The notes beneath the pieces are model-generated. The model made no database searches. It worked only from the letters and a program-made list of their open reading frames with translations, and was not told the DNA's origin. The translations under genes were made by a program, and so were the position numbers. From a virus, in the IMG/VR virus record IMGVR_UViG_3300028581_000020, positions 40,528 through 104,527 of that record: a stretch of DNA of 64,000 nt. One strand, 5' to 3'. Shown here in pieces: positions 2,551 through 62,671 of this stretch; the first letter of the stretch is position 1; each line of letters opens with the position of its first letter.

Positions 2551-2899
2551 TATCTCAGCATTAGCACAAGAAGTAGTTATCGTACAAAAGGGTCAGGAAG
2601 CTCCTTTCACGGGGCTTCTTTTCACCAAAGAACGAGCCGATGTTATCAGGGACAATGAAATTGCTCTAGATGGACAAAAGAAACTTAATACATCTTTAAA
2701 CCTTGAACTAACGTTTAAAGACTCCTCTTTAAATGCCCGTAAATCGGAAATTGACATTCTAATGGCCCAGAACGACAAGCTGTCAAAATCGCTCATGGAA
2801 GAGCGCTCTGTGGGCTCCTGGGAGCGTCTTAGTTGGGTAGCGGTTGGTATTTTAGCTTCAGGATTAGCATTTTATGGACTCCAAAAAGTACAAAAATAG
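2498..2899 (+). CDS. signal-peptide protein with C-terminal membrane anchor, 133 aa (phage A)
   Basis: Starting at ATG 2498, which is nested in the previous gene in a different frame, the protein has a Sec signal peptide (about residues 1-23, ending SALAQ). A periplasmic part follows with an APFTGLLFT motif near residue 35 and a long charged helix (about 45-100), then one hydrophobic segment near the C-terminus (about 110-128). The APF-G-LF/YL motif after a signal peptide occurs in a widespread phage family of unknown function, often near lysis genes. The nesting recalls Rz/Rz1, but there is no lipobox Cys, so it is not a standard o-spanin. It overlaps the next gene by 26 bp. Confidence 0.65.
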   Translation: MNRLIYKILSVSLIASLNISALAQEVVIVQKGQEAPFTGLLFTKERADVIRDNEIALDGQKKLNTSLNLELTFKDSSLNARKSEIDILMAQNDKLSKSLMEERSVGSWERLSWVAVGILASGLAFYGLQKVQK

Positions 2900-3569
2900 C
2901 ACAGAAGATCTTTTAACGGCTCTTAATTCTTCAGATAAAGACATTGTTATTATTGAGAAAGAAGCTCCCTCTGACATTGGTCGGGCGGGGGTTTTTTTAC
3001 GTTTGTATGATCTTATGCCCGGAAGTACTAAAATCTCACAGAATACAGTTTTTAAAGCTTATAAACTTAGTGTTAAGAAATTTAAAATCAAGTTTAAAAC
3101 TAAGCAATCCTTTTTTGACTATTTAGCAACGCTAGGATTTAATACTGAGAGGAATTTTGTATTTGTCGATGGAAAAGTCAAGGAGCTGGTTTATGCCGCG
3201 ACTGAAAAAGAAGTAAAGATGGCTAAATACAAGAAAGAAACCACATATAAACTTCTAGAACAGTTTATTAATGAGCTTTCGATTTCCCCAGGCGATTGTC
3301 GTTGGGCTTTTGCCAATGTTCGTACAGTGATTTGGCTATGGCTTATTAATAATAAGTTAAAAAATCGTGTAGAATCGAAGCATATCAGTCATGCGTTCTT
3401 TAAAAAACACAAATTGGCGAGTAGTAGTACATATCATCTCTACGTCTCGGATGACGCAGATAAAAACATGAAGGAGTATTTAAATGGTAATGCAAGTAAA
3501 GAAAAAACGAGTAAAGCGCAAGAGTCTAAAATACCCGGCGCTGGACCCGGCGGTCAATCTAAAGACTAG
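2874..3569 (+). CDS. hypothetical protein, 231 aa (phage A)
   Basis: I do not recognise it. It is Lys-rich and soluble. The central part is a run of helices with aromatic residues (RWAFANVRTVIWLWLIN around 145-160), which could be a helix-turn-helix or a buried helical bundle. The C-terminal 35 residues are low in complexity, rich in Lys/Ser/Gly, and are also read in another frame by the next gene (86-bp overlap). The start ATG lies inside the preceding gene, consistent with one transcript. The context (end of the rightward cluster, before the convergent late operon) gives no firm hint of function. Confidence 0.6.
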   Translation: MDSKKYKNSTEDLLTALNSSDKDIVIIEKEAPSDIGRAGVFLRLYDLMPGSTKISQNTVFKAYKLSVKKFKIKFKTKQSFFDYLATLGFNTERNFVFVDGKVKELVYAATEKEVKMAKYKKETTYKLLEQFINELSISPGDCRWAFANVRTVIWLWLINNKLKNRVESKHISHAFFKKHKLASSSTYHLYVSDDADKNMKEYLNGNASKEKTSKAQESKIPGAGPGGQSKD

Positions 3570-21558: not shown

Positions 21559-22822
21559 ATTAGTTTCCGACCCTCTCGACGTTGAAATAAGTATTTGCAG
21601 TAGTTCCCGAAATTGTGAGTGTGCTTGCCGAGTTGTTTCCAAGGCCGTATAGGAAGATTTCAACGTAATCCCCAGCATTCAACTGAAGCGTCGTGCTTCC
21701 ATTGAACGCGTTGATTGTCGTTGCGGCAGATGTTCTGTACCCAAACAGACGAGCGGACGCTCCGTTTTTGTAGAGGTAAAGCCCGTAATCAGATGCGAGC
21801 ACGTTAGCTGAGGCGAGCAGGACTGCGGAGCTTATGCGGTACTTACCCGATACGGGTGCAGTGAATCTGCTGTTTGCTGAGCTAAATGATCCGGTCGTGT
21901 CAAACACTGCGGAAGAAAAAGCTACCTTAACGAAACTATTATTCGTCGCGATCCCTGTTTGGTTAGACCCTCCAAGTGTTGCATCCATCGCGACTGTTTC
22001 ACTCGCCGCGATCTGCGACGGGCCGGAGATACGCGAGATTGAGAAGTAGTTGTCAACAACACTACCTCCGACATTCAATGCTCCACCTGAGTTTTGGAAA
22101 ACTTGAATCCCTACCGTGTCCCCTGCATTGAACAAATATTCTGTTGCACCATTCAAAAACGTACCTGCAGAAGCCGTAGGGTCGAATATGTATGCCAGTG
22201 TGCGGATATTGCTTCCGTTTACACGCAGACGAACCTCACGACCGTTCGTCGAGCTTGCGGCAAAACTTACTTGAGTCGTAATCCTATACCAGCCGGGGAC
22301 TGGAATCGTGTAGAGACTTGTACCGGTATTCCAAGCCCCGTGCGTGTCGCTGATTGCGGCATCGAACGCTACGAGTGTTCCGGTGCTGTCTGGAATTGAC
22401 TGAGTGGCTGCGCGGCCTGTAGTCATTGCCACGACGCGAGTGTCCGTCTCAGACGACATCTGCACTTGAGACGACCATCCGGTGATGGGGACGAGGAAAG
22501 ATCCGCCAAAAACCGTGTTGTTGGCCCAAGCCGTCCCTAACGTGCCATTGAAATAATTATCTGCCTGTTGGCTAATGATTGCGACCGTTGTTGGAGAACC
22601 TGTGGCTACGAGAATATTGCCTGACCATGGGGTTTTAGATGCGGTAAGCGCCCCCACAACAGAGTTGTTTACGGCTCTAGTTATGTCCATAGAAAGGCCG
22701 CTTGGCAGCGAAATAGAAACTGGTGATCCAGAATTTGTTCCAGAAGTAACTGTAAACATGACTTCAAGAGAATCACCTACGCGCCGATACTTGGCGATAG
22801 ATGCAGAAACAGTTCCTAGGCC
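21559..22822. repeat. direct repeat, left copy (fibre tip module shared by A and B)
   Basis: This 1264-bp block matches 59821-61084 in the same orientation at a constant offset of 38262 bp. Positions 22431-22822 (392 bp) read as identical in both copies. The other side (21559-22430) differs by scattered, mostly synonymous substitutions, with another near-identical stretch at about 21608-21770. Beyond 22822 DNA identity collapses, although protein similarity continues for another 160 or so residues. The block ends exactly at the fibre stop codon. Confidence 0.95.
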
Positions 22823-23500
22823 AACGTATGTCGGAGTGTAGCTCTGCCAGTCCGTGACTGGCGTTCCCTGCGTGATGATCTGCGGAGAGACGCGGACGTC
22901 GGATAGCGCCATCGTGTAGGCGGATGCCGACGTGCTGCCAACGTGGATACAGAGGCGGTAGCTGGTCGAGTTAGAGGCTGCCTGGAAAGTGCCTCTCCAA
23001 CTTTGTTGAACAGTGGTGCTTTCAATCGAAGAAGGGGCCGGTTGAATCAAAATCGAGTTGGTAACATCGTAGATCCAGACCGAAAGATCGCTCGTGGCGT
23101 AAGTCCCGCTGACTACCTCGTAGGGGAACGTAATTTGCAGGACTTTACCTTTGTCGGAATTATCAATCGTGAATGCATTCGAGACCCCGTTGCCTTGCCG
23201 GTTGTTTGCATCCTTGACGAGGTTGAAGTCAGCTCCCGGACGAAGCGGCGTTGTGGTCGAGCGCGAGATCGCAAACGTAGGGCTACCGCCCGTGCAATCG
23301 ACCGGAGAGCTGGCTGCCGAATCAGCATACCCCGCCCATCCGAGAGTATCTTTTCTAGCGTAGGCGTTTTTTATGTAGTTGCGGGAAGAGCTTGATCCGC
23401 TGTCGAGGAAATCTGCATCTAAAAACCTAGGGGTTTGCGCAAACGTAGTGCTCGCCCCAAGGGCTGCCGCTGCCAGTAAGAGGCGTTTGAAAAATTTCAT
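21560..23500 (-). CDS. hybrid tail fibre 1 with tandem C1q-like tip, 646 aa (N-term phage B, C-term shared)
   Basis: Residues 1-22 look like a Sec signal peptide (KFFKRLLLAAAALGASTTFAQ), which is odd for a virion protein. Residues about 30-220 are GC-rich phage-B coding and align at protein level with the A fibre (ATSDLSVWIYDVTN, QPAPSSIE, WRGTFQ-ASNSTSYRL). Residues 226-646 are the shared module. It contains two C1q-like jelly rolls (about 395-525 and 540-646) with FDAAISDTHGAWNTG...VPGWYRITTQV and FDTTGSFSS..FTAPVSGKYR patterns, each closing with L-AGDYVEIF or FNAGDTVGIQ. This should be a trimeric host-binding fibre. Codon and GC use changes at about 22.8 kb. In B the gene would continue into 59822, not into A. 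Confidence 0.85.
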   Translation of the reverse strand: MKFFKRLLLAAAALGASTTFAQTPRFLDADFLDSGSSSSRNYIKNAYARKDTLGWAGYADSAASSPVDCTGGSPTFAISRSTTTPLRPGADFNLVKDANNRQGNGVSNAFTIDNSDKGKVLQITFPYEVVSGTYATSDLSVWIYDVTNSILIQPAPSSIESTTVQQSWRGTFQAASNSTSYRLCIHVGSTSASAYTMALSDVRVSPQIITQGTPVTDWQSYTPTYVGLGTVSASIAKYRRVGDSLEVMFTVTSGTNSGSPVSISLPSGLSMDITRAVNNSVVGALTASKTPWSGNILVATGSPTTVAIISQQADNYFNGTLGTAWANNTVFGGSFLVPITGWSSQVQMSSETDTRVVAMTTGRAATQSIPDSTGTLVAFDAAISDTHGAWNTGTSLYTIPVPGWYRITTQVSFAASSTNGREVRLRVNGSNIRTLAYIFDPTASAGTFLNGATEYLFNAGDTVGIQVFQNSGGALNVGGSVVDNYFSISRISGPSQIAASETVAMDATLGGSNQTGIATNNSFVKVAFSSAVFDTTGSFSSANSRFTAPVSGKYRISSAVLLASANVLASDYGLYLYKNGASARLFGYRTSAATTINAFNGSTTLQLNAGDYVEIFLYGLGNNSASTLTISGTTANTYFNVERVGN

Positions 23501-46752: not shown

Positions 46753-47051
46753 GAATCATCAAATTCGTCTCACGCGAAATTAGCGGTGGGCAGATTGCGC
46801 TCTATCCTATCTATGAGAATGGCAGGGAGGGTGCGCTTGCGTGTAAGTGTACGCCTGAAGTTGCGCACATGTTCATGAGCGCGCCAAGCCTTATGCGTAT
46901 GGCAGAGCAAGCAACTGGCTCCCCGGACCCCATCATGCGCAGTCTCGCGCGTACCTCGCTCGCACTCGCGAAGCGTGCGCCAGACGTTCTCCCTGCAAAT
47001 AGCCGCTCTGATGCGTTCATGAGCATCATTAGGGGGCTTCGGGATGGCTAA
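46749..47051 (+). CDS. hypothetical early protein, 100 aa (phage B)
   Basis: It starts at GTG 46749, overlapping the previous TGA (GTGA). The sequence has an N-terminal beta hairpin (IIKFVSREISGGQIALYPIYENG). It also has the segment VAHMFMSAPSLMRMAEQATG, similar to the ARLIAAAPDLL motif of many small phage proteins of unknown role, and an Arg/Ala-rich helix. It is soluble with no catalytic motif. It overlaps the HNH gene by 8 bp. Confidence 0.55.
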   Translation: MRIIKFVSREISGGQIALYPIYENGREGALACKCTPEVAHMFMSAPSLMRMAEQATGSPDPIMRSLARTSLALAKRAPDVLPANSRSDAFMSIIRGLRDG

Positions 47052-47445
47052 GCGCATTGGACTCACCAAGGGTTTTCACTGCATTGTGAGTGATGAGGAC
47101 TTTGAATGGATCGGATCATTCAAATGGCACGCATCTATTGCAACGACAGATGAGCGCAGTATCCAAAAAGTATACGCGAAGCGCCGTAGGCGAGTCTCCG
47201 AGCCTGGCGAGACAGCCATGGTGTACATGCACCATGAGGTCATGAAGCGGCACTTGCGCGAGCAAGGCCTTGACGTTGACTTGGAGCTTGCAGGCAAGTA
47301 CATCGATCACGGGGATGGGGACTCTTTGAATAACACGCGCGAGAATCTTTGGCCTGTTTTGCCGAAAGAGAACATCCCACGCTACACGCTGATCCATAAT
47401 CAGCCACGCGTGAAGCGTGCGCTTAAGAAAGCGAGAAGGAAATGA
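47044..47445 (+). CDS. HNH homing endonuclease, AP2/NUMOD-type, 133 aa (phage B)
   Basis: The opening IGLTKGFHCIVSDEDFEWIGSFKWHASI, then the MVYMHHEVMKRHL strand and finally YIDHGDGDSLNNTRENLWPV, are the well-known features of small phage HNH nucleases: L--G--A-VD-ED---L--KW, MHR-I, DH--GD-LNNR-ENLR. Catalytic His are at about 58-59 and 95-96. It lies in the string of early genes with 4-8 bp overlaps, so it integrated without disturbing the reading frames. Confidence 0.85.
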   Translation: MAKRIGLTKGFHCIVSDEDFEWIGSFKWHASIATTDERSIQKVYAKRRRRVSEPGETAMVYMHHEVMKRHLREQGLDVDLELAGKYIDHGDGDSLNNTRENLWPVLPKENIPRYTLIHNQPRVKRALKKARRK

Positions 47446-47705
47446 CCCCCGAATCCAAGACCCCCAGCGCGTGGCCGAGTGAGGAAGACTTCTGTCACAT
47501 AGCGTGGGAGTGTTTCGGCCAAGACATTGCGTCGCATAACTTCAAAGGCCTCTACGCAGTTCTCACCACCCGCCTCAAAGACCACGTCATCCTACCAAGG
47601 GATCAGGTGGAGAAGCTAAGGGAAGAGATTGTGAGCGACGTTAAGTCTCTGCGTACATTCGACTGCCTCAACATCCTCGACGCCGCATTAACAAACAACA
47701 AGTAA
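47442..47705 (+). CDS. hypothetical early protein, 87 aa (phage B)
   Basis: This is an acidic, soluble, helical protein. The middle (about 14-45) has IAWECFGQDIASHNFKGLYAVL, and the C-terminus is a charged helix (DQVEKLREEIVSDVKSLRTF). It has two Cys and no recognised domain. It starts at an ATGA overlap with the HNH stop and ends 9 bp before the DUF6948-like gene. Confidence 0.5.
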   Translation: MTPESKTPSAWPSEEDFCHIAWECFGQDIASHNFKGLYAVLTTRLKDHVILPRDQVEKLREEIVSDVKSLRTFDCLNILDAALTNNK

Positions 47706-47714
47706 AGGAGACCT

Positions 47715-48083
47715 ATGGAAATCAGTGCAAATGAAATTGAAATCAACGGCCAAAAGTACGTGAAGAAAGGCACACAGTCGCAGGCAACATCGCCTGAAGG
47801 ACTTCCCTACGTCATCATCCGCAGCGAGGGGGCTGGCGTCTTTGCCGGTTACTTGAAAGAGCAGAATGGTCAGGAAGTCGTGATCCTTGAGTCTCGTCGT
47901 CTTTGGTATTGGTCTGGTGCCGCATCGCTCAGTCAGCTTGCCATTGACGGTACATCGAAGCCCAAAGACTGCAAGTTCCCCGAGGCTGTGTCGTCACAGA
48001 AGATTTTCAAGGTGCTTGAGATCATCAATGTGACCCAGAAAGCAAAAGACTCGATTGCGAGCGTGAAGCCGTGGCAACTGTAG
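47715..48083 (+). CDS. DUF6948-like conserved phage protein, 122 aa (phage B)
   Basis: The sequence LPYVIIRSEGAGVFAGYLKE, RRLWYWSGAASLSQLAIDGTSKPKDCKFPE and a C-terminal IINVTQKAKDSIASVKPW are the defining features of a widespread family of small phage proteins of unknown function, which I know as DUF6948 (GVFAGYL, RRLWYW-GAASLSQLA, CKFP). It has AAAGGAGA upstream. The next gene starts inside its last codons and encodes a Gly-rich repeat; such a repeat commonly follows this gene in other phages, from memory. Confidence 0.7.
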   Translation: MEISANEIEINGQKYVKKGTQSQATSPEGLPYVIIRSEGAGVFAGYLKEQNGQEVVILESRRLWYWSGAASLSQLAIDGTSKPKDCKFPEAVSSQKIFKVLEIINVTQKAKDSIASVKPWQL

Positions 48084-48292
48084 AGGTTGATTCCGGCTCC
48101 GGCGACGGCTCCGGCGACGGCTACGGCTACGGCTCCGGCGACGGCGACGGCTCCGGCTACGGCTCCGGCGACGGCGACGGCTCCGGCTACGGCGACGGCT
48201 ACGGCTCCGGCTACGGCGACGGCTCCGGCGACGGCGACGGCTCCGGCGACGGCGACGGCTACGGCTCCGGCTACGGCGACGGCTACGGTTGA
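48071..48292 (+). CDS. low-complexity Gly-Ser/Asp/Tyr repeat protein, 73 aa (phage B)
   Basis: It starts at GTG 48071, inside the end of the DUF6948-like gene. After seven ordinary residues it is a strict alternation of Gly with Ser, Asp or Tyr (GSGDGYG-type) to the stop. At DNA level every second codon is GGC and the other is TCC, GAC or TAC. The other forward frames and the reverse strand are also open (Ala/Pro/Thr and Ala/Val repeats), but this frame fits coupling and avoids an odd composition. It may be an adhesive or disordered linker protein, or a fused extension of its neighbour if a frameshift occurs. Confidence 0.6.
   Translation: MATVEVDSGSGDGSGDGYGYGSGDGDGSGYGSGDGDGSGYGDGYGSGYGDGSGDGDGSGDGDGYGSGYGDGYG
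48092..48289. repeat. simple-sequence repeat tract (hexamer-based)
   Basis: About 200 bp consist only of GGC followed by TCC, GAC or TAC, in irregular order with local duplications of blocks such as GGCTCCGGCGACGGC. Such tracts expand or shrink by slippage. It spans most of the Gly-repeat gene. Confidence 0.9.
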
Positions 48293-48353
48293 TCTATGAA
48301 AACTTTTCGCAAAGCCTCCAGCAACCGTGCCGCAAAGACGCCGGGGGTGGCGA

Positions 48354-48671
48354 GTGATTAGCGACTGGCACATGCAGGATGACCGCAAGTCAGGGAAAGT
48401 GATCAAAGTCCGCAAGACTTTACGCCCCATGGACGAGGCAGCCTCGGATGCGTGGCTAAAGAAGCTCGGCGAATGGATCGAGGCCAATCCTCCCCCTGCC
48501 AGTGGCGTGGCCCTAAAAATGGCAGAAGAGCGCACGACAAACAAGATCGTGTGGTGGGCTCTCAATACCTACGGTAATGTCCAACTCGCTGCCGACAAAT
48601 TGGGTATGCTGAGATCAACTCTCTTTGAGCGTATGCGGGCTCAGGGAATTAAATGGGAGCGGAAGAGATGA
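48354..48671 (+). CDS. FIS-type HTH DNA-binding protein, 105 aa (phage B)
   Basis: The C-terminal 42 residues (TTNKIVWWALNTYGNVQLAADKLGMLRSTLFERMRAQGI) form the FIS/NtrC-C HTH: I--AL---GN---AA--LG--R-TL--R---GI. The N-terminal part is basic and helical. Start uncertain: GTG 48354 (GGGGGTGG upstream) is preferred. A GTG at 48327 would add nine residues, and ATG 48369 would remove five. It probably controls phage transcription, for example the switch to late genes, as no phage RNA polymerase is seen. It overlaps the next gene by 4 bp. Confidence 0.75.
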   Translation: MISDWHMQDDRKSGKVIKVRKTLRPMDEAASDAWLKKLGEWIEANPPPASGVALKMAEERTTNKIVWWALNTYGNVQLAADKLGMLRSTLFERMRAQGIKWERKR

Positions 48672-49108: not shown

Positions 49109-51478
49109 TTGTTACAGATTTTGGGGCTGAGGGAAAAGTTCAATTCAAAGCTCGGCATACGTAGACCTAGCGAGGATTTCTTCGCGAAGGGCTGGCGCGC
49201 AATGGACTTGCGCACGATGTTTGCCTCCCTGCCAGATGTGCTGGCGCAGATCCCGGAAGATCAGCGTTGGAACCTGTTCTACACGATGCACCATGTGTTT
49301 GAAGAGCCAGGCCGGCGCATGGAGCGCATGGAGGCCTACGCCTTTGACATCGATCAGATCCCCGGCTTCTCGGGTACGCGCGATCAGGTACGCGAGATTG
49401 CGGGTGTGGTTGCGCGCACGCTAGGCCTCCCCCTGGAAGAACTTGGCGTTGTCTGCAGCGGGAACGGCGTGCACGTTCTCGTATATTTGGACCCGAGTTG
49501 TTGGCAGACATCGCCGGAATATTTTGAAAAGAACCGGGGGCATTACCGGGCAGTCTGCGACAACATCAATCGAGCCCTGGATGTGGCGGGCTACGGGGGC
49601 GCAAAAGCTGACCCCGCAATCTTTGATCAGGCGCGAATTCTCAGGCTCCCCGGAACCCTCAATCGCAAGACGAAAGAGGGGCAGTTACGTGAGCGTAACT
49701 GTTACCTCTTGCAGGGGGATTTAAAGCCCCAGAAAATCGATATCTCCGAGCTCTCGGGGATCCCGGAAGTCAGTCCCGAGGACGCAATCCCCGAGGCGCA
49801 GATGGCTAGGTTCCCGGAGCCAGACCCGGAAGGGGTGCTGGGCGGCTGCAGTTTCCTGAAAGAGTGCAAGGCGCTGCCTAAGACGGTGACGGAGCCCAAC
49901 TGGTACGCCATGCTCTCGATCATTGGTCGCTTGCCTAATGGCCGCGAGCTTGCGCATGAATATTCAAAAGGCCATCCAAACTACACCCCTCAGGAGACTG
50001 AGGCGAAGCTTGATCAGGCGATGGCCCAAGCGGGCCCCCGCACCTGCCAGAACGTGCAGGATCTTTGGGGCAAATGTAAGCAGTGCCCCTATTACGGAAA
50101 GATTCCGAGTCCGATCGTTATCAAGGGCGAGAACTATATCGCAACCGAGAAGACGGGCTTTCACCACATGACGACGGGCCAGGACGGGAGACCGAAGCCT
50201 GGCAAAGCCGACTGGGATGGGCTGAGAAAGTTCTTTCAGCGCAAACACCCCTACGCAACGCTTGCCGATGGCGAGTATCTAGTGACCTGGACCGGCACCC
50301 ACTGGCAGGAGTATTCAAAGGTTGAGGCAAAGGCATTTGCGCAGAAGCACTTCAGGCCGGTAGCGGATACGAATAAAGCGAATGAGTTCCTGGGAATTTT
50401 GCTACGCAATGAGGTGCGCCCCCGGGGTTGGACGCAACATGGGACGAAGGGGAAATTGAACTTTCTTAATGGAACCCTGGAGCCCCGTACGATGTCGTTT
50501 GGTCCGCACAACCGAGACGACGGATTCATGAACGTGATTCCCTACGCGTATGATCCGAAGGCTGCGGCTCCTCGGTTTGAAAAGTTCCTTGATGATGTGA
50601 CATGCGGGCACCGGGAGCTTCGCGAAATCCTCCTGCAATATATCGGATACTCGCTCTCAAACGATGCGATATGGGAACAGAAATGCCTCATCCTGCAGGG
50701 GGAGGGACGCAACGGAAAATCCACTCTAATGCAGGTAGTGCGCGAGCTTGCAGGTGAGGGTAACTCTGCGTCGCTGACTCTCACTGAGCTTGAAAAAGAC
50801 ACGAACCGTTTCTCGCTTGACGGTGCGTTCTTTAATATGGCCGAAGAAGCTCCCACGCGTGGGATGCTCGAGAGCGGAATCTTCAAGACGCTCATTGGCG
50901 GCGGGAGCTTCCAGGTAAAGAAGCTTTACTCGCAGCCGTACTCAATTCAAAATCGTGCGAAGCTCTGGCTTGCGTGTAACGACATGCCTCGCTTCAACGA
51001 CTTCACGGTGGGGATGTTCCGCCGGCTTGTGATCGTGCCTTTCCAGGCGAAGTTTGAGGGAGCAAACGTCGATAAGAACATCGGAGCAAAGCTCAGCGAA
51101 GAGCTCCCCGGAATCTTCAATCTTGCGATGGCAGCCTACGGGCGGATGCGCGCAAACGGAGGACTCCTGGATTCGCAATTGGTGCAGGAGCAGGCCGACA
51201 TGTACCGGCTTGAACAGGACTCGGTGTACAACTGGTGGCAGGATAATGTCGAAGTTGTACCCATGTCGGAGACGGCCCCCCGGGTTGACTCAAGTAAGTT
51301 ATTCCAGGAGTACGCAATGCACATGCGCCAGTCGGAGGAGAAGCCTTTGTCTGCTCAGCAATTCCAAAAGCGTGTGCGCACATTTGTGAAAGATATTGAA
51401 GCTAGGCGCGTGCGATCAAATGGCGTGCGTTGGCTCATAGGCATTTCGTTATTGACAAGGCGTATGGAAAACTTCTAG
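49109..51478 (+). CDS. PrimPol-type primase fused to SF3 (D5) helicase, 789 aa (phage B)
   Basis: The start is TTG 49109 with GGAGGGG 8 nt upstream. Residues 70-190 have archaeo-eukaryotic primase motifs: YAFDID (Asp80 and Asp82, metal-binding DxD), GNGVHVLVYLD (His122) and ADPAIFDQARILRLPG (Asp168, Arg179). A Cys-rich segment (about 313-326) may bind zinc. Residues 500-690 are an SF3 ATPase: GEGRNGKST Walker A at 531-539, FFNMAEEAP Walker B about 574-582, and KLWLACNDMP motif C/sensor about 618-627. It makes primers and unwinds DNA at the fork, replacing the T7-type primase-helicase. Next come other replication genes in one transcript. The leader 48993-49108 has no other gene. Confidence 0.9.
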   Translation: MLQILGLREKFNSKLGIRRPSEDFFAKGWRAMDLRTMFASLPDVLAQIPEDQRWNLFYTMHHVFEEPGRRMERMEAYAFDIDQIPGFSGTRDQVREIAGVVARTLGLPLEELGVVCSGNGVHVLVYLDPSCWQTSPEYFEKNRGHYRAVCDNINRALDVAGYGGAKADPAIFDQARILRLPGTLNRKTKEGQLRERNCYLLQGDLKPQKIDISELSGIPEVSPEDAIPEAQMARFPEPDPEGVLGGCSFLKECKALPKTVTEPNWYAMLSIIGRLPNGRELAHEYSKGHPNYTPQETEAKLDQAMAQAGPRTCQNVQDLWGKCKQCPYYGKIPSPIVIKGENYIATEKTGFHHMTTGQDGRPKPGKADWDGLRKFFQRKHPYATLADGEYLVTWTGTHWQEYSKVEAKAFAQKHFRPVADTNKANEFLGILLRNEVRPRGWTQHGTKGKLNFLNGTLEPRTMSFGPHNRDDGFMNVIPYAYDPKAAAPRFEKFLDDVTCGHRELREILLQYIGYSLSNDAIWEQKCLILQGEGRNGKSTLMQVVRELAGEGNSASLTLTELEKDTNRFSLDGAFFNMAEEAPTRGMLESGIFKTLIGGGSFQVKKLYSQPYSIQNRAKLWLACNDMPRFNDFTVGMFRRLVIVPFQAKFEGANVDKNIGAKLSEELPGIFNLAMAAYGRMRANGGLLDSQLVQEQADMYRLEQDSVYNWWQDNVEVVPMSETAPRVDSSKLFQEYAMHMRQSEEKPLSAQQFQKRVRTFVKDIEARRVRSNGVRWLIGISLLTRRMENF

Positions 51479-59078: not shown

Positions 59079-59822
59079 CTATCCCCCGCAGACAGCCATT
59101 CTAAACGGATTTTTCGGATCGCGGTAGTAGCCTTTGACCCAGTTTTCTCGTGGCCCGCGGTTTGTTTCATGCACTTTTATGCAGCCATCAATCCACGCTT
59201 TCCCCCACCAGGGGAGCTTCACTTTCCGTAGGAATTTGATGCGGAGATCAGCCAGCCCCCAGTTTTTTGAGAGCCGCAGCCCTAGCCCCAGCCAGAGAAG
59301 CGAGATCGGATCGGGCTCCTCACCTGCTGCCAGCTCAAGGATTGCCCAGTCACCAGGCTGAAGCATCTCAGTCCACGACCAACGTCCGGGATCGCGGGGG
59401 TTGTACTGAAACCAGTGCTTGCGCCCATACTCGAGAATCGCCCAGGCATGCCCTGAATTGTAGTGGTGCGAGAGGATTGCAAGCGACACCACGTTGTCGT
59501 GCGACTGCCCGATGTCAAGCGGCACGAGGTCGCCTTCTGCATTCTCAAATCTGAGCTCGTGCCCAGGCCACCGCCCGTGGAGCCCCGGCTCAATCTCAGT
59601 CAGCTCCATGTGGCGCTTAAAAGCCAGGAACCCTTCCACTGATCTCGCCTCCGGGTCAAGCTCAAGGAGCCCCTGCGCCAGCGCGTAGCTCGCGTTCTCG
59701 TTGGTTGAGCGCACAGGATATTTCGGACTCAACGGGGGAGCTAGGTTGCCCGGCTCATCTTCAAACAAACCCCCGCCATCGGGAGCAATGTAGCGCTCGA
59801 CGAAGGCGGAGAGGTGGTCCAT
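59079..59822 (-). CDS. conserved late protein downstream of fibre, 247 aa (phage B)
   Basis: The protein has FVERYIAPDGGGLFEDEPGNLAPPLSPKYPVRSTNENASYALAQGLL. It also has GHAWAILEYGRKHWFQYNPRDPGRWSWTEMLQPGDWAILELA and a C-terminal Trp/Lys region (KVKLPWWGKAWIDGCIKVHETNRGP). It has no signal peptide or membrane segment. The family is unknown to me; similar genes lie between fibre and lysis genes in podoviruses and might be fibre chaperones. The start overlaps the fibre stop at 59822 by one base, so this is the native B downstream neighbour of the B fibre. Confidence 0.55.
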   Translation of the reverse strand: MDHLSAFVERYIAPDGGGLFEDEPGNLAPPLSPKYPVRSTNENASYALAQGLLELDPEARSVEGFLAFKRHMELTEIEPGLHGRWPGHELRFENAEGDLVPLDIGQSHDNVVSLAILSHHYNSGHAWAILEYGRKHWFQYNPRDPGRWSWTEMLQPGDWAILELAAGEEPDPISLLWLGLGLRLSKNWGLADLRIKFLRKVKLPWWGKAWIDGCIKVHETNRGPRENWVKGYYRDPKNPFRMAVCGG

Positions 59823-61084
59823 TAGTTTCCGACCCTCTCGACGTTGAAATAAGTATTTGCAATAACTCCCGAAATTGTGAGTGTGCTTGCCGAGTTGTTT
59901 CCAAGGCCGTATAGGAAGATTTCAACGTAATCCCCAGCATTCAACTGAAGCGTCGTGCTTCCATTGAACGCGTTGATTGTCGTTGCGGCAGATGTTCTGT
60001 ACCCAAACAGACGAGCGGACGCTCCGTTTTTATATAGGTAAAGCCCGTAATCGGATGCGAGCACGTTCGCGGAGGCAAGTAGGACTGCAGCACTTACGCG
60101 ATACTTACCTGACACCGGGGCCGTGAACCGACTATTGCCGGAGCTAAACGATCCAGTTGTATCGAAGACTGCGGAAGAGAAGGCCACCTTAACGAAACTA
60201 TTGTTCGTTGCTACTCCTGTTTGGTTAGCCCCTCCAAGTGTTGCATCCATCGCGACTGTCTCACTGGCCGCGATCTGCGATGGGCCGGAGATTCGGGAGA
60301 TGGAGAAGTAGTTGTCAGCAACACCTCCTCCGACGTTTAATGCTCCACCTGAGTTTTGGAAGACTTGAATCCCTACCGTGTCCCCTGCGTTAAACAAATA
60401 TTCTGTTGCACCATTCAAAAACGTACCTGCAGAAGCCGTAGGGCCGAATATGTATGCCAGTGTCCGGATATTGCTTCCGTTTACACGCAGACGAACCTCA
60501 CGACCGTTGGTCGAGCTTGCGGCAAAAGCTACTTGAGTCGTAATCCTATACCAGCCAGGGACTGGAATCGTATAGAGACTTGTACCGGTATTCCAAGCCC
60601 CGTGCGTGTCGCTGATTGCGGCGTCGAAAGCTACCAGTGTTCCGGTACTGTCTGGAATCGACTGAGTGGCTGCGCGGCCTGTAGTCATCGCTACGACGCG
60701 AGTGTCCGTCTCAGACGACATCTGCACTTGAGACGACCATCCGGTGATGGGGACGAGGAAAGATCCGCCAAAAACCGTGTTGTTGGCCCAAGCCGTCCCT
60801 AACGTGCCATTGAAATAATTATCTGCCTGTTGGCTAATGATTGCGACCGTTGTTGGAGAACCTGTGGCTACGAGAATATTGCCTGACCATGGGGTTTTAG
60901 ATGCGGTAAGCGCCCCCACAACAGAGTTGTTTACGGCTCTAGTTATGTCCATAGAAAGGCCGCTTGGCAGCGAAATAGAAACTGGTGATCCAGAATTTGT
61001 TCCAGAAGTAACTGTAAACATGACTTCAAGAGAATCACCTACGCGCCGATACTTGGCGATAGATGCAGAAACAGTTCCTAGGCC
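59821..61084. repeat. direct repeat, right copy (fibre tip module shared by A and B)
   Basis: This is the partner of 21559-22822 in the same orientation, offset 38262 bp. Positions 60693-61084 are identical to the left copy as read. The remainder differs at scattered positions (for example GTAGTTCC versus ATAACTCC near the stop). Beyond 61084 DNA similarity stops, though protein similarity continues. Confidence 0.95.
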
Positions 61085-62671
61085 GACAAATGTAGGAGTG
61101 TAGCTCTGCCAATCCGTAACAGGCGTTCCCTGCGTAATAATTTGAGGCCCGACAACAACATCATCAAATGCTAGTGTGTATGCACTAGTGGACACGCTGC
61201 TAACATGAAGAATTAAGCGATAGCTGGTGCTGTTTGAGGCAGTTTGGAAGGTTCCACGCCATTTACTGCCACCAATGAAATTTTCAATAGAACTTGGTGC
61301 TGGCTGAATGAGTGTTGCATTTGTAATATCATAAATCCAAACAGTCATGTCGCTTGTAGCAAAGGTTCCGGAGACAACTTCGTAATCAAACGAAATGCTT
61401 TGTACTTGTGCTTTGTCAATGGAGGCGATTGTGAAGTCATAAGAGACGCCTTGTCCTTGACGGTTCGCGGCATCCTTTACAAAATTAAAATCATAAGCTC
61501 CGCGAAGAGGCGTTGTGCTCGAAACGTCCCATGTTACGGTAGCAATGCCTCCAGTCCCATCAACGGGAGCTGTTCCTGGAGCGTTAGTATATGTGGTCCA
61601 GCCGGTAGTAAGGCCAGACTCAGCATCGCCTTCTAGAACATAATTAACTACTTGCGTCTTATCTAAACGATAAGGAGCAGCACTAGAAGCGTCGTTCTTA
61701 AAATAAGGGTGTCCATCAGATCCGGGATAGAAGCTTCCATAACCAGAAGCAACAGTAGGACCAGTGGTAGGAGTTGAAAGTTCTACCATACGAGCGGCGT
61801 CTTCTAAACTAATAAGACCCGTTCCGTTAGCGTTAATGCTAATATTCCCATTAGTATCCGTGCTAGAAATTTCATTACCATCAACGCGAATGTTATCGAC
61901 ATCTAGCTGCGTAATTCCTGACATGGCTCCGGCATCATTAAGAGCAACGGTACTACTTTGAATAAAGTTACCAGTCGTTCCATCCCAACGAGCAACGCGG
62001 TCATCAACAACAACACCAGAAGCCGCAATGCCCCCAGAACCACCGACTACGCGCCATCGTGCGGTTGAATCGTCATATTTAAGAATGACAACACCGCCGT
62101 TTTTAAGGGAAATAGTCGAACCGTTTCCAGTAATAATACGGTTGGCGGCAGAAGGATTTGAATCTTCGTTTGGAATACTAATATCACTGCCGCTAGCATT
62201 GATGACATAAAGAACTTTATCTCCGGAAGCTGCAACAATACCGCGCAACGACGTGACAGCGCCGGTAAGGCGAATCGAACCATAAGTAGCGTTTACAAGA
62301 GCGTCAACGTTGCCAGTAGAGGCGTCGTTTTGGTCAGTGACTACAATACCATTACCGTCTAATAGAAGACCGGACGAGATTACCGTTCCAGAACCATTAC
62401 GAGCAAGGATTTTATTAGCGTCACCAACTTCAGTTTTAAGTGAAGATAGTGCAAGATCTTGTACGGTGTTGCTGTCTCCGTCAATCGTTTTATTTGTAAG
62501 CGTGGCTGCGTGGGCTTCCGTTACAACCGGACTAGAAGATGTTCCATTATGATAATTAAGCTTTCCATCTCCGCTAGTGACATCCAAATCACCCTGGTCG
62601 TCGGCTGTGGAGGCGGATTCTGGACGAAGGTTTAAACCCTTCCAAATTTTAGTGAAAACATTGGCAGACAT
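59822..62671 (-). CDS. hybrid tail fibre 2 with tandem C1q-like tip, 949 aa (N-term phage A, C-term shared)
   Basis: Residues 1-530 are AT-richer phage-A coding and contain an attachment domain (SANVFTKIWKGLNLRPESASTADDQ), fibre repeats (LTNKTIDGDSNTVQDLAL), a module with SAANRIITGNG...RWRVVGGSG related to one in the B fibre, and an interaction region with STADDQGDLDVTSG. Residues about 330-530 align with the N-terminal part of hybrid fibre 1. Residues 530-949 are the shared tip, with two C1q-like jelly rolls (about 700-830 and 845-949). In its native A context the gene would continue into 21557. In the sequence it is fused to phage B at 59822. Confidence 0.85.
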   Translation of the reverse strand: MSANVFTKIWKGLNLRPESASTADDQGDLDVTSGDGKLNYHNGTSSSPVVTEAHAATLTNKTIDGDSNTVQDLALSSLKTEVGDANKILARNGSGTVISSGLLLDGNGIVVTDQNDASTGNVDALVNATYGSIRLTGAVTSLRGIVAASGDKVLYVINASGSDISIPNEDSNPSAANRIITGNGSTISLKNGGVVILKYDDSTARWRVVGGSGGIAASGVVVDDRVARWDGTTGNFIQSSTVALNDAGAMSGITQLDVDNIRVDGNEISSTDTNGNISINANGTGLISLEDAARMVELSTPTTGPTVASGYGSFYPGSDGHPYFKNDASSAAPYRLDKTQVVNYVLEGDAESGLTTGWTTYTNAPGTAPVDGTGGIATVTWDVSSTTPLRGAYDFNFVKDAANRQGQGVSYDFTIASIDKAQVQSISFDYEVVSGTFATSDMTVWIYDITNATLIQPAPSSIENFIGGSKWRGTFQTASNSTSYRLILHVSSVSTSAYTLAFDDVVVGPQIITQGTPVTDWQSYTPTFVGLGTVSASIAKYRRVGDSLEVMFTVTSGTNSGSPVSISLPSGLSMDITRAVNNSVVGALTASKTPWSGNILVATGSPTTVAIISQQADNYFNGTLGTAWANNTVFGGSFLVPITGWSSQVQMSSETDTRVVAMTTGRAATQSIPDSTGTLVAFDAAISDTHGAWNTGTSLYTIPVPGWYRITTQVAFAASSTNGREVRLRVNGSNIRTLAYIFGPTASAGTFLNGATEYLFNAGDTVGIQVFQNSGGALNVGGGVADNYFSISRISGPSQIAASETVAMDATLGGANQTGVATNNSFVKVAFSSAVFDTTGSFSSGNSRFTAPVSGKYRVSAAVLLASANVLASDYGLYLYKNGASARLFGYRTSAATTINAFNGSTTLQLNAGDYVEIFLYGLGNNSASTLTISGVIANTYFNVERVGN

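Follow-up and report, generated by a model that had tools for sequence, protein, structure and literature searches.

A putative two-gene phage module of DUF6948, with a predicted Sm fold, and an acidic, variable Gly-X repeat protein

Overview

A Gly-X (GX) repeat ORF of the window, by which the whole 64,000-nucleotide stretch of viral DNA analysed here is meant, belongs, as judged from sequence comparison, to a two-gene module that is widespread in phages, and is the second of its genes. The first gene encodes a DUF6948 protein with a predicted Sm fold. In the contigs and genomes compared, the two genes are paired and usually overlap, the peptide pattern is kept across different codon alphabets, and the array turns over in whole 6-nt units. 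A plausible but tentative reading, which we prefer, is that a Sm-like DUF6948 protein works with a separately encoded acidic, disordered, glycine-rich tail, in the manner of the C-terminal domain of Hfq.

The locus in the window

The virus record that contains the window is 104,527 bases long. A sequence-only reading had located a Gly-(Ser/Asp/Tyr) repeat in the ORF at 48071-48292, with its start inside an upstream DUF6948-like gene. Both points were confirmed: the pure run lies at 48095-48286, the GTG start falls within 47715-48083, and that upstream ORF matches PF22253. The features of the locus are as follows.

47704-47710, plus strand: AAAGGAG, likely ribosome-binding site of the DUF6948 gene, as read from the sequence
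47715-48083, plus strand: DUF6948 gene, 122 aa, predicted Sm/Lsm fold (PF22253, E 1.5e-24; AlphaFold2 pLDDT 90.9; Foldseek)
48071-48083, plus strand: overlap of the two genes, from the GTG start of GX, made with a Trp codon (TGG), to the TAG stop of DUF6948
48071-48292, plus strand: GX gene, 73 aa, Gly alternating with Ser/Asp/Tyr, net charge -15, frame -1 relative to DUF6948
48095-48286, plus strand: uninterrupted array of 32 GGC-KMC units of 6 nt

The GX ORF ends with TGA, and its product begins with VATVEVDS (the start codon shown as V), followed by the Gly-X units. The array is the sole run of at least four (GGC KMC) units on either strand of the window; when the window was shuffled 100 times by mononucleotide, such runs reached 12 nt at most. 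TRF assigned periods of 12 and 18 to it, with scores of 217 and 243. Its X codons are TCC, GAC and TAC only; GCC (Ala), which would complete the KMC set, does not occur. The upstream ORF scored 86.4 bits against PF22253 (DUF6948), for which the curated cut-off is 27 and the Pfam scan gives no function. The GX ORF matched no Pfam family above cut-off and no PHROG; a TrAA12 match (E 0.0017), below the cut-off, was taken as compositional.

Three ORFs lie near the pair: 47044-47445, which matches HNH weakly, 48327-48671, which is Fis-type HTH-like but just under its Pfam cut-off, and 49109-51478, which is of the primase/D5 type. A reverse-strand ORF of 210 aa (47933-48565, minus strand) is open through the array, which it reads as Ala-Val/Ala-Gly. 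This ORF is probably spurious and a trap for gene callers. Elsewhere in the window, 21560-23500 and 59822-62671, both on the minus strand, encode two fibre-like proteins whose translations have a long C-terminal part in common, almost identical in both. This looks like a duplicated fibre tip.

Pairing of DUF6948 and GX

DUF6948 relatives were taken from viral contigs regardless of any repeat, and 80 of 100 confirmed loci were kept. DUF6948 is followed by a GX tract in 78 of the 80. After seven repeated junctions were dropped, a Gly-(Ser/Asp/Tyr/Asn) tract was present behind DUF6948 at 71 of the 73 distinct junctions. As for the other two, L037 carries Gly-Thr units there instead, and L076 breaks off 80 nt past the match. 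The array is in frame -1 of DUF6948 at 64 of the 71 junctions. At 63, the GX start overlaps the last Trp codon of DUF6948 (ATG in 57, GTG in 6), the start codon being composed of the base before the Trp codon and the first two bases of that codon (ATGG/GTGG). The distance from this start to the DUF6948 stop is 10 nt in 60 of these loci and 13 nt in 3. The eight junctions with another arrangement include L071 and L082, in which the longest run is in a later piece, and L060, L061 and L064, which have a separate ATG past the DUF6948 stop. The single DUF6948 gene of L071 is followed, over about 1.2 kb, by GX tracts that fall into several pieces and lie in several frames. As an alternative to separate translation, -1 ribosomal frameshifting was rejected: by eye, the 73 junctions have no slippery heptamer in common, whereas they do have the overlapping start codon in common.

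The converse search fetched at least 120 contigs solely by eight GGNKMY units. Among the matches listed, a DUF6948-like ORF lies upstream of 65 of the 73 mixed arrays, against 2 of the 25 arrays of a single unit type (Fisher p 1.3e-13), and 8 of the 73 mixed arrays have no recognised DUF6948-like partner; this count covers arrays with at least 250 nt upstream, and 22 more were too near a contig end. It should be mentioned that seven loci of the converse set trained two of the four profiles and that a few of its contigs were also in training sets. The other two profiles alone found a DUF6948-like partner for 52 of the 73 mixed arrays among the matches listed.

GX was also present in a divergent subfamily (IVVLDRGFVYVGDV...WGTTKGLGEL), at 69 of its 75 distinct loci; the frame is -1 at 52 of these, and the start falls on a TGG at 42. 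Two of the six remaining loci are cut off, and four are devoid of GX despite enough sequence. Homology of this subfamily to DUF6948 is weakly suggested, mainly by the shared position and partner; profile comparison with DUF6948 gave E 0.0029 and a probability of 11%. The pair also occurs in 8 of 9 bacterial genome contigs. Among plasmids, DUF6948 was seen in one record, from Monoglobus pectinilyticus.

Cultured phages carry the pair as well: Chlorobiaceae phage CV-1-33, Iodobacter phage phiPLPE, Vibrio phage IKEMa6-1, Dickeya phage Setonix, Rhodobacter phage RcapNL, seven Pectobacterium phages of the Ymer genus and the Rheinheimera Barba phages, for which the region was matched by 115 records, in 114 cases over 80% or more of its length. 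The phiPLPE genome has the GX tract with the GX gene left unannotated. In the Ymer phages GX is in frame +1 and overlaps DUF6948 by 17 nt, and in the Barba phages a 3-nt gap separates the two genes. Because another frame or a gap is used in these phages, strict coupling of DUF6948 and GX is not universal, and the exact overlap is kept less strictly than adjacency and order. A short array only is present in the gut record L214, and short pieces only in L212. Near the pair are recombination genes in the Ymer phages and phiPLPE, an exodeoxyribonuclease in the Barba phages and a primase in the window, a neighbourhood that looks like early genes. The phage contigs and isolates with the pair are tied to several bacterial phyla, and in the records examined the pair is annotated as two "hypothetical proteins" or its second gene is uncalled.

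Predicted fold of DUF6948 and the proposed model

The AlphaFold2 model of DUF6948 was built from 70 sequences (mean pLDDT as listed above). In a Foldseek search of the PDB with this model, the best 50 of 709 rows (E up to 10) were, by their titles, all Sm/Lsm or spliceosomal/decapping chains of that fold. The best match had E 0.026 and a probability of 1.00, and none reached E 0.001. VIA-align gave Z values up to 6.9 (60 residues, rmsd 2.0), and according to the tool a Z below 8 may mean a common strand arrangement only; its list includes 3by7, titled as similar to Sm/Lsm. These comparisons point to a Sm fold as the predicted fold of DUF6948. Since the LSM (PF01423) and Hfq (PF17209) profiles find nothing in the record of the window at E up to 10, the link to Sm proteins is a resemblance of fold, not sequence membership. 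A PDB sequence search with DUF6948 gave no match at E up to 1. The columns R36, R61, R62 and K87 are K/R throughout.

In the model that we prefer, DUF6948 would form a Sm-type ring that handles RNA early in infection. The GX protein, translated separately, would act in trans as a disordered tail of DUF6948, akin to the C-terminal domain of E. coli Hfq, and its tyrosines and glycines might contribute weak multivalent contacts. Ring formation and RNA binding by DUF6948, disorder of GX and contact between both proteins are what we infer. The arrays would lengthen, shorten and shuffle via unequal exchange between units, by which silent bases would be homogenised, and selection would retain the Ser/Asp/Tyr mix without a fixed order. 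One report on E. coli Hfq describes an acidic disordered tail whose binding to the basic Sm core is in competition with RNA (PMC5606850). For A. baumannii Hfq, GGFGGQ repeats and an acidic tip are described in part of another report, and altering the tip lowers fitness (PMC11617691). Counting against the model, the long C-terminus of A. baylyi Hfq is stated, in passages of a third, not to account for the growth and cell phenotype (PMC5663733). If the model is true, DUF6948 gains a fold and a partner, and a Sm protein has its disordered tail as a separate, fast-changing gene.

Composition of the arrays

The X residues are Ser (33.4%), Tyr (30.8%), Asp (26.2%), Asn (2.9%) and Phe (2.1%) among 2,385 positions; those of the divergent subfamily are Tyr (45%), Asp (30%), Ser (13%) and Asn (8%) among 1,719. 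Codons were analysed in 57 arrays of at least 15 units. The silent bases go in sets by lineage: GGC is combined with TCC/GAC/TAC in 24 arrays and with TCT/GAT/TAT in 12, and the remaining sets are GGG-, GGT- and GGA-based. This choice tracks local GC (correlation 0.78), and the residues are unchanged across lineages. Ala, encoded by the fourth KMC codon, was observed 12 times versus 191 expected if the two bases were independent. Within arrays, heterozygosity averages 0, 0, 0.028, 0.444, 0.460 and 0.053 at the six positions of the unit; the two amino-acid-changing bases are diverse and the silent ones nearly uniform. Repeated 5-unit words number 287 versus 106 in shuffles, an excess that fits duplication as the source of units. 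Individually, 16 of the 57 arrays are unusual in this respect, and the window array is not clearly so (3 versus 1.2). Our reading is that unit exchange, or homogenisation, keeps the silent sites uniform and that selection keeps the Ser/Asp/Tyr mixture. The contrast of coding and silent bases inside one array makes concerted evolution under selection measurable.

GX might instead be a phase-separating scaffold, with Tyr as stickers, Gly and Ser as spacers and Asp for solubility, forming a condensate or gel in the infected cell, to which DUF6948 recruits RNA or another client. Composition would then count and order would not, which agrees with the constant Ser, Tyr and Asp shares while the order changes between near-identical phages. 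However, 181 of 183 GX regions are net negative, and the strong charge (median -9) together with the short length (median 70 residues) disfavours self-association. This explanation seems unlikely.

Turnover of the arrays

The sequence-only reading had called the tract fast-evolving, and close relatives bear this out: altered arrays lie beside unchanged or almost unchanged flanks, as in Ymer versus Amona and in Barba19A versus Barba1A. Ymer and Amona are identical over 1,683 nt upstream and over 1,500 nt downstream, and their GX genes, 222 and 204 nt long, show 13 mismatches over 204 positions. Taid, Ymer, Amona and Pappous have no mismatch in the downstream 1,500 nt (for Taid with a 12-base offset, due to an earlier stop), yet they carry four array alleles. 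Ymer and Abuela are identical. In the eight phages of this comparison, the GX lengths range from 162 to 270 nt and are all multiples of 6. According to part of the report on the Ymer genus, these genomes come from Illumina reads and metaSPAdes, so the arrays rest on short-read assembly; within that report, the word "glycine" is absent from the main text and section 3.4 is silent on the GX gene (PMC11445585).

Among the Barba phages, Barba15S differs from Barba1A by one extra Tyr unit and Barba12A by two exchanged units, each with 0 differences in 1,700 flanking bases. Between Barba19A and Barba1A, GX has 25 mismatches and 30 gapped positions, and the flanks differ at 1 of 800 and 5 of 900 positions. 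The region is at least 99% identical in 79 of the 115 records. Among the 60 of 115 rows listed, 41 have one span, 17 a span longer by 6, 1 a span longer by 30, and 1 is partial. In Barba1A the pair is gp018 (DUF6948) and gp017 (GX), and the words glycine, repeat and gp017 are absent from the main text of the Barba paper (PMC6715854).

Thirteen metagenome groups of different contigs were counted by hand. The arrays differ in five (L033/L034, L040/L046, L047/L049, L079/L080, L327/L329), where L046 and L327 stop inside the array; they are the same over the available part in eight (L009/L010, L022/L023, L026/L027, L039/L043/L045, L073/L075, L233-L240, L259/L260, L333/L334). L047 and L049 also differ upstream (144 of 1,144), and most other groups have near-identical flanks. 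L122 and L193, a pair outside this count, differ in the array. Uniform length among relatives had been named as an argument against a changing repeat, and it is seen in part: the window array is identical in two other carrier contigs, and the isolates vary. Turnover is fast relative to the flanks and, on this evidence, not fast per generation. An origin by a diversity-generating retroelement was rejected: PF00078 (reverse transcriptase) has 0 matches in the record, which is maybe a fragment, and the 4-unit pattern occurs in this array alone.

It is also conceivable that GX is a variable ligand in an arms race, its array rewritten to keep binding or escaping a changing host factor, with DUF6948 as the carrier. 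Array alleles that differ where flanks are identical would be expected of such a ligand, as would diverse amino-acid-changing bases among uniform silent ones and the scarcity of Ala. Nevertheless, the array is unchanged in the eight metagenome groups above and one common span prevails in the Barba rows listed; moreover, the same data are explained by unit exchange plus loose selection on composition. We consider this explanation less probable than the scaffold. A little less weight still is given to a natural binding-peptide library, in which a Sm-like protein would be paired with a separately encoded Gly-X chain of KMY codons, and this chain, rewritten by unit exchange with its silent bases kept uniform, would track a changing RNA-binding or defence partner of the host.

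C-terminal domains behind some arrays

In most complete GX ORFs the array is followed by a few residues at most: the tail is shorter than 25 aa in 160 of the 187 stop-terminated GX ORFs. The other 27 have a tail of at least 25 aa, and not every such tail is a folded domain. A C-terminal domain with the pattern FAHG...LTGSC is found behind the array in 19 distinct ORFs, and its model has a pLDDT of 93.5.

FAHG...LTGSC carriers: L143, L145, L175, L200, L077, L079, L081, L086-L088, L102, L205, L214, L215, L224-L226, L228, L231

A PDB profile search with this domain gave weak uS5m rows only (E 0.012 and 0.014). A structure search gave one EF-hand-like row at Z 6.2 and the rest below Z 5, which was taken as no clear match, and in BFVD the domain was found in phage proteins, one of them named lamprin. 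A second, different domain of about 116 aa, with LHAT and KW motifs, is at the end of the GX ORFs of L142 and L181 and matches no Pfam family. For the GX C-terminal domains, no Pfam family was found above cut-off (a weak Tox-HNH-HHH match had E 0.027) and no NCBIfam family.

Since some GX proteins have a C-terminal domain that is modelled with confidence, the array is also able to display a further domain. The earlier suggestion of a linker holds for a minority and fails for the protein of the window, which has no tail. Extended to all GX proteins, the array would be a flexible tether for such a domain, and versions without one, like that of the window, would be degenerate or would act with another protein. 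The one domain shared by 19 ORFs and the different one in two others agree with this, but the short tails occur in many lineages and in cultured phages too. Its probability seems slightly lower than that of the peptide library.

Reading frames of the tract

The sequence-only reading had proposed a contingency locus, in which frame shifts caused by strand slippage would switch or fuse the products. The tract in the window is indeed open in all three forward frames, it consists of repeats that change fast, and one contig, L034, has a frame change inside the array. In L034 (about 2782-3403) the GX ORF thereby continues into a downstream cold-shock-protein-like ORF, where an assembly error is possible. 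However, array turnover respects the frame: the GX gene lengths of the isolates compared differ by multiples of 6 nt. Openness in any frame does not extend to the relatives either: the other forward frames of the tract contain a stop in 11 of 71, and at least one of the five other frames does in 55 of 71. Nor is fusion by slippage the rule, since the usual state is two genes in different frames, and a natural in-frame fusion, with both parts in one chain, was found in one case (L114). We therefore regard a contingency locus as highly improbable.

The least probable explanation of all is a neutral coding microsatellite or DNA-level element without protein function, which would account for the period-6 repeats and the excess of 5-unit words in the 57 arrays but not for the constant partner and start codon, the same residues from different codon alphabets or the depletion of Ala.

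Comparison with known systems

In the literature searched, no earlier description of the DUF6948-GX module was found: no paper on DUF6948 appeared, and titles and abstract starts gave no phage system with glycine-rich hypervariable or phase-separating repeats. With many alleles, cultured phages and near-unchanged flanks, the module may serve as a natural test case for whether selection on disordered regions acts on their composition or on their order.

The preferred model of a Sm-like core with a separate tail resembles Hfq in having a Sm-fold core, here predicted only, and an acidic and/or glycine-rich repetitive disordered partner. GX is acidic, as an Hfq-type tail is, but it is not on the same polypeptide as the Sm domain, with L114 as the exception. 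In the phages the tail has a gene of its own, mostly read in an overlapping frame; Gly and X alternate strictly in it, its array is hypervariable, and phage DUF6948 lacks the sequence signature of Hfq or LSM. SmB, SmD and Lsm4 also combine the Sm fold with glycine-rich low-complexity tails. These tails are fused and basic, whereas phage GX is separate and acidic; the Sm fold and the glycine-rich sequence are common to both. Another parallel is found in synthetic binders, where the Tyr/Ser/Asp/Ala "four-amino-acid code" from the KMT codon is the choice of engineers for minimal binders. The variable codon of GX is likewise of the KMY form, but GX is nearly without Ala, has Gly at every second residue, and is natural and phage-encoded.
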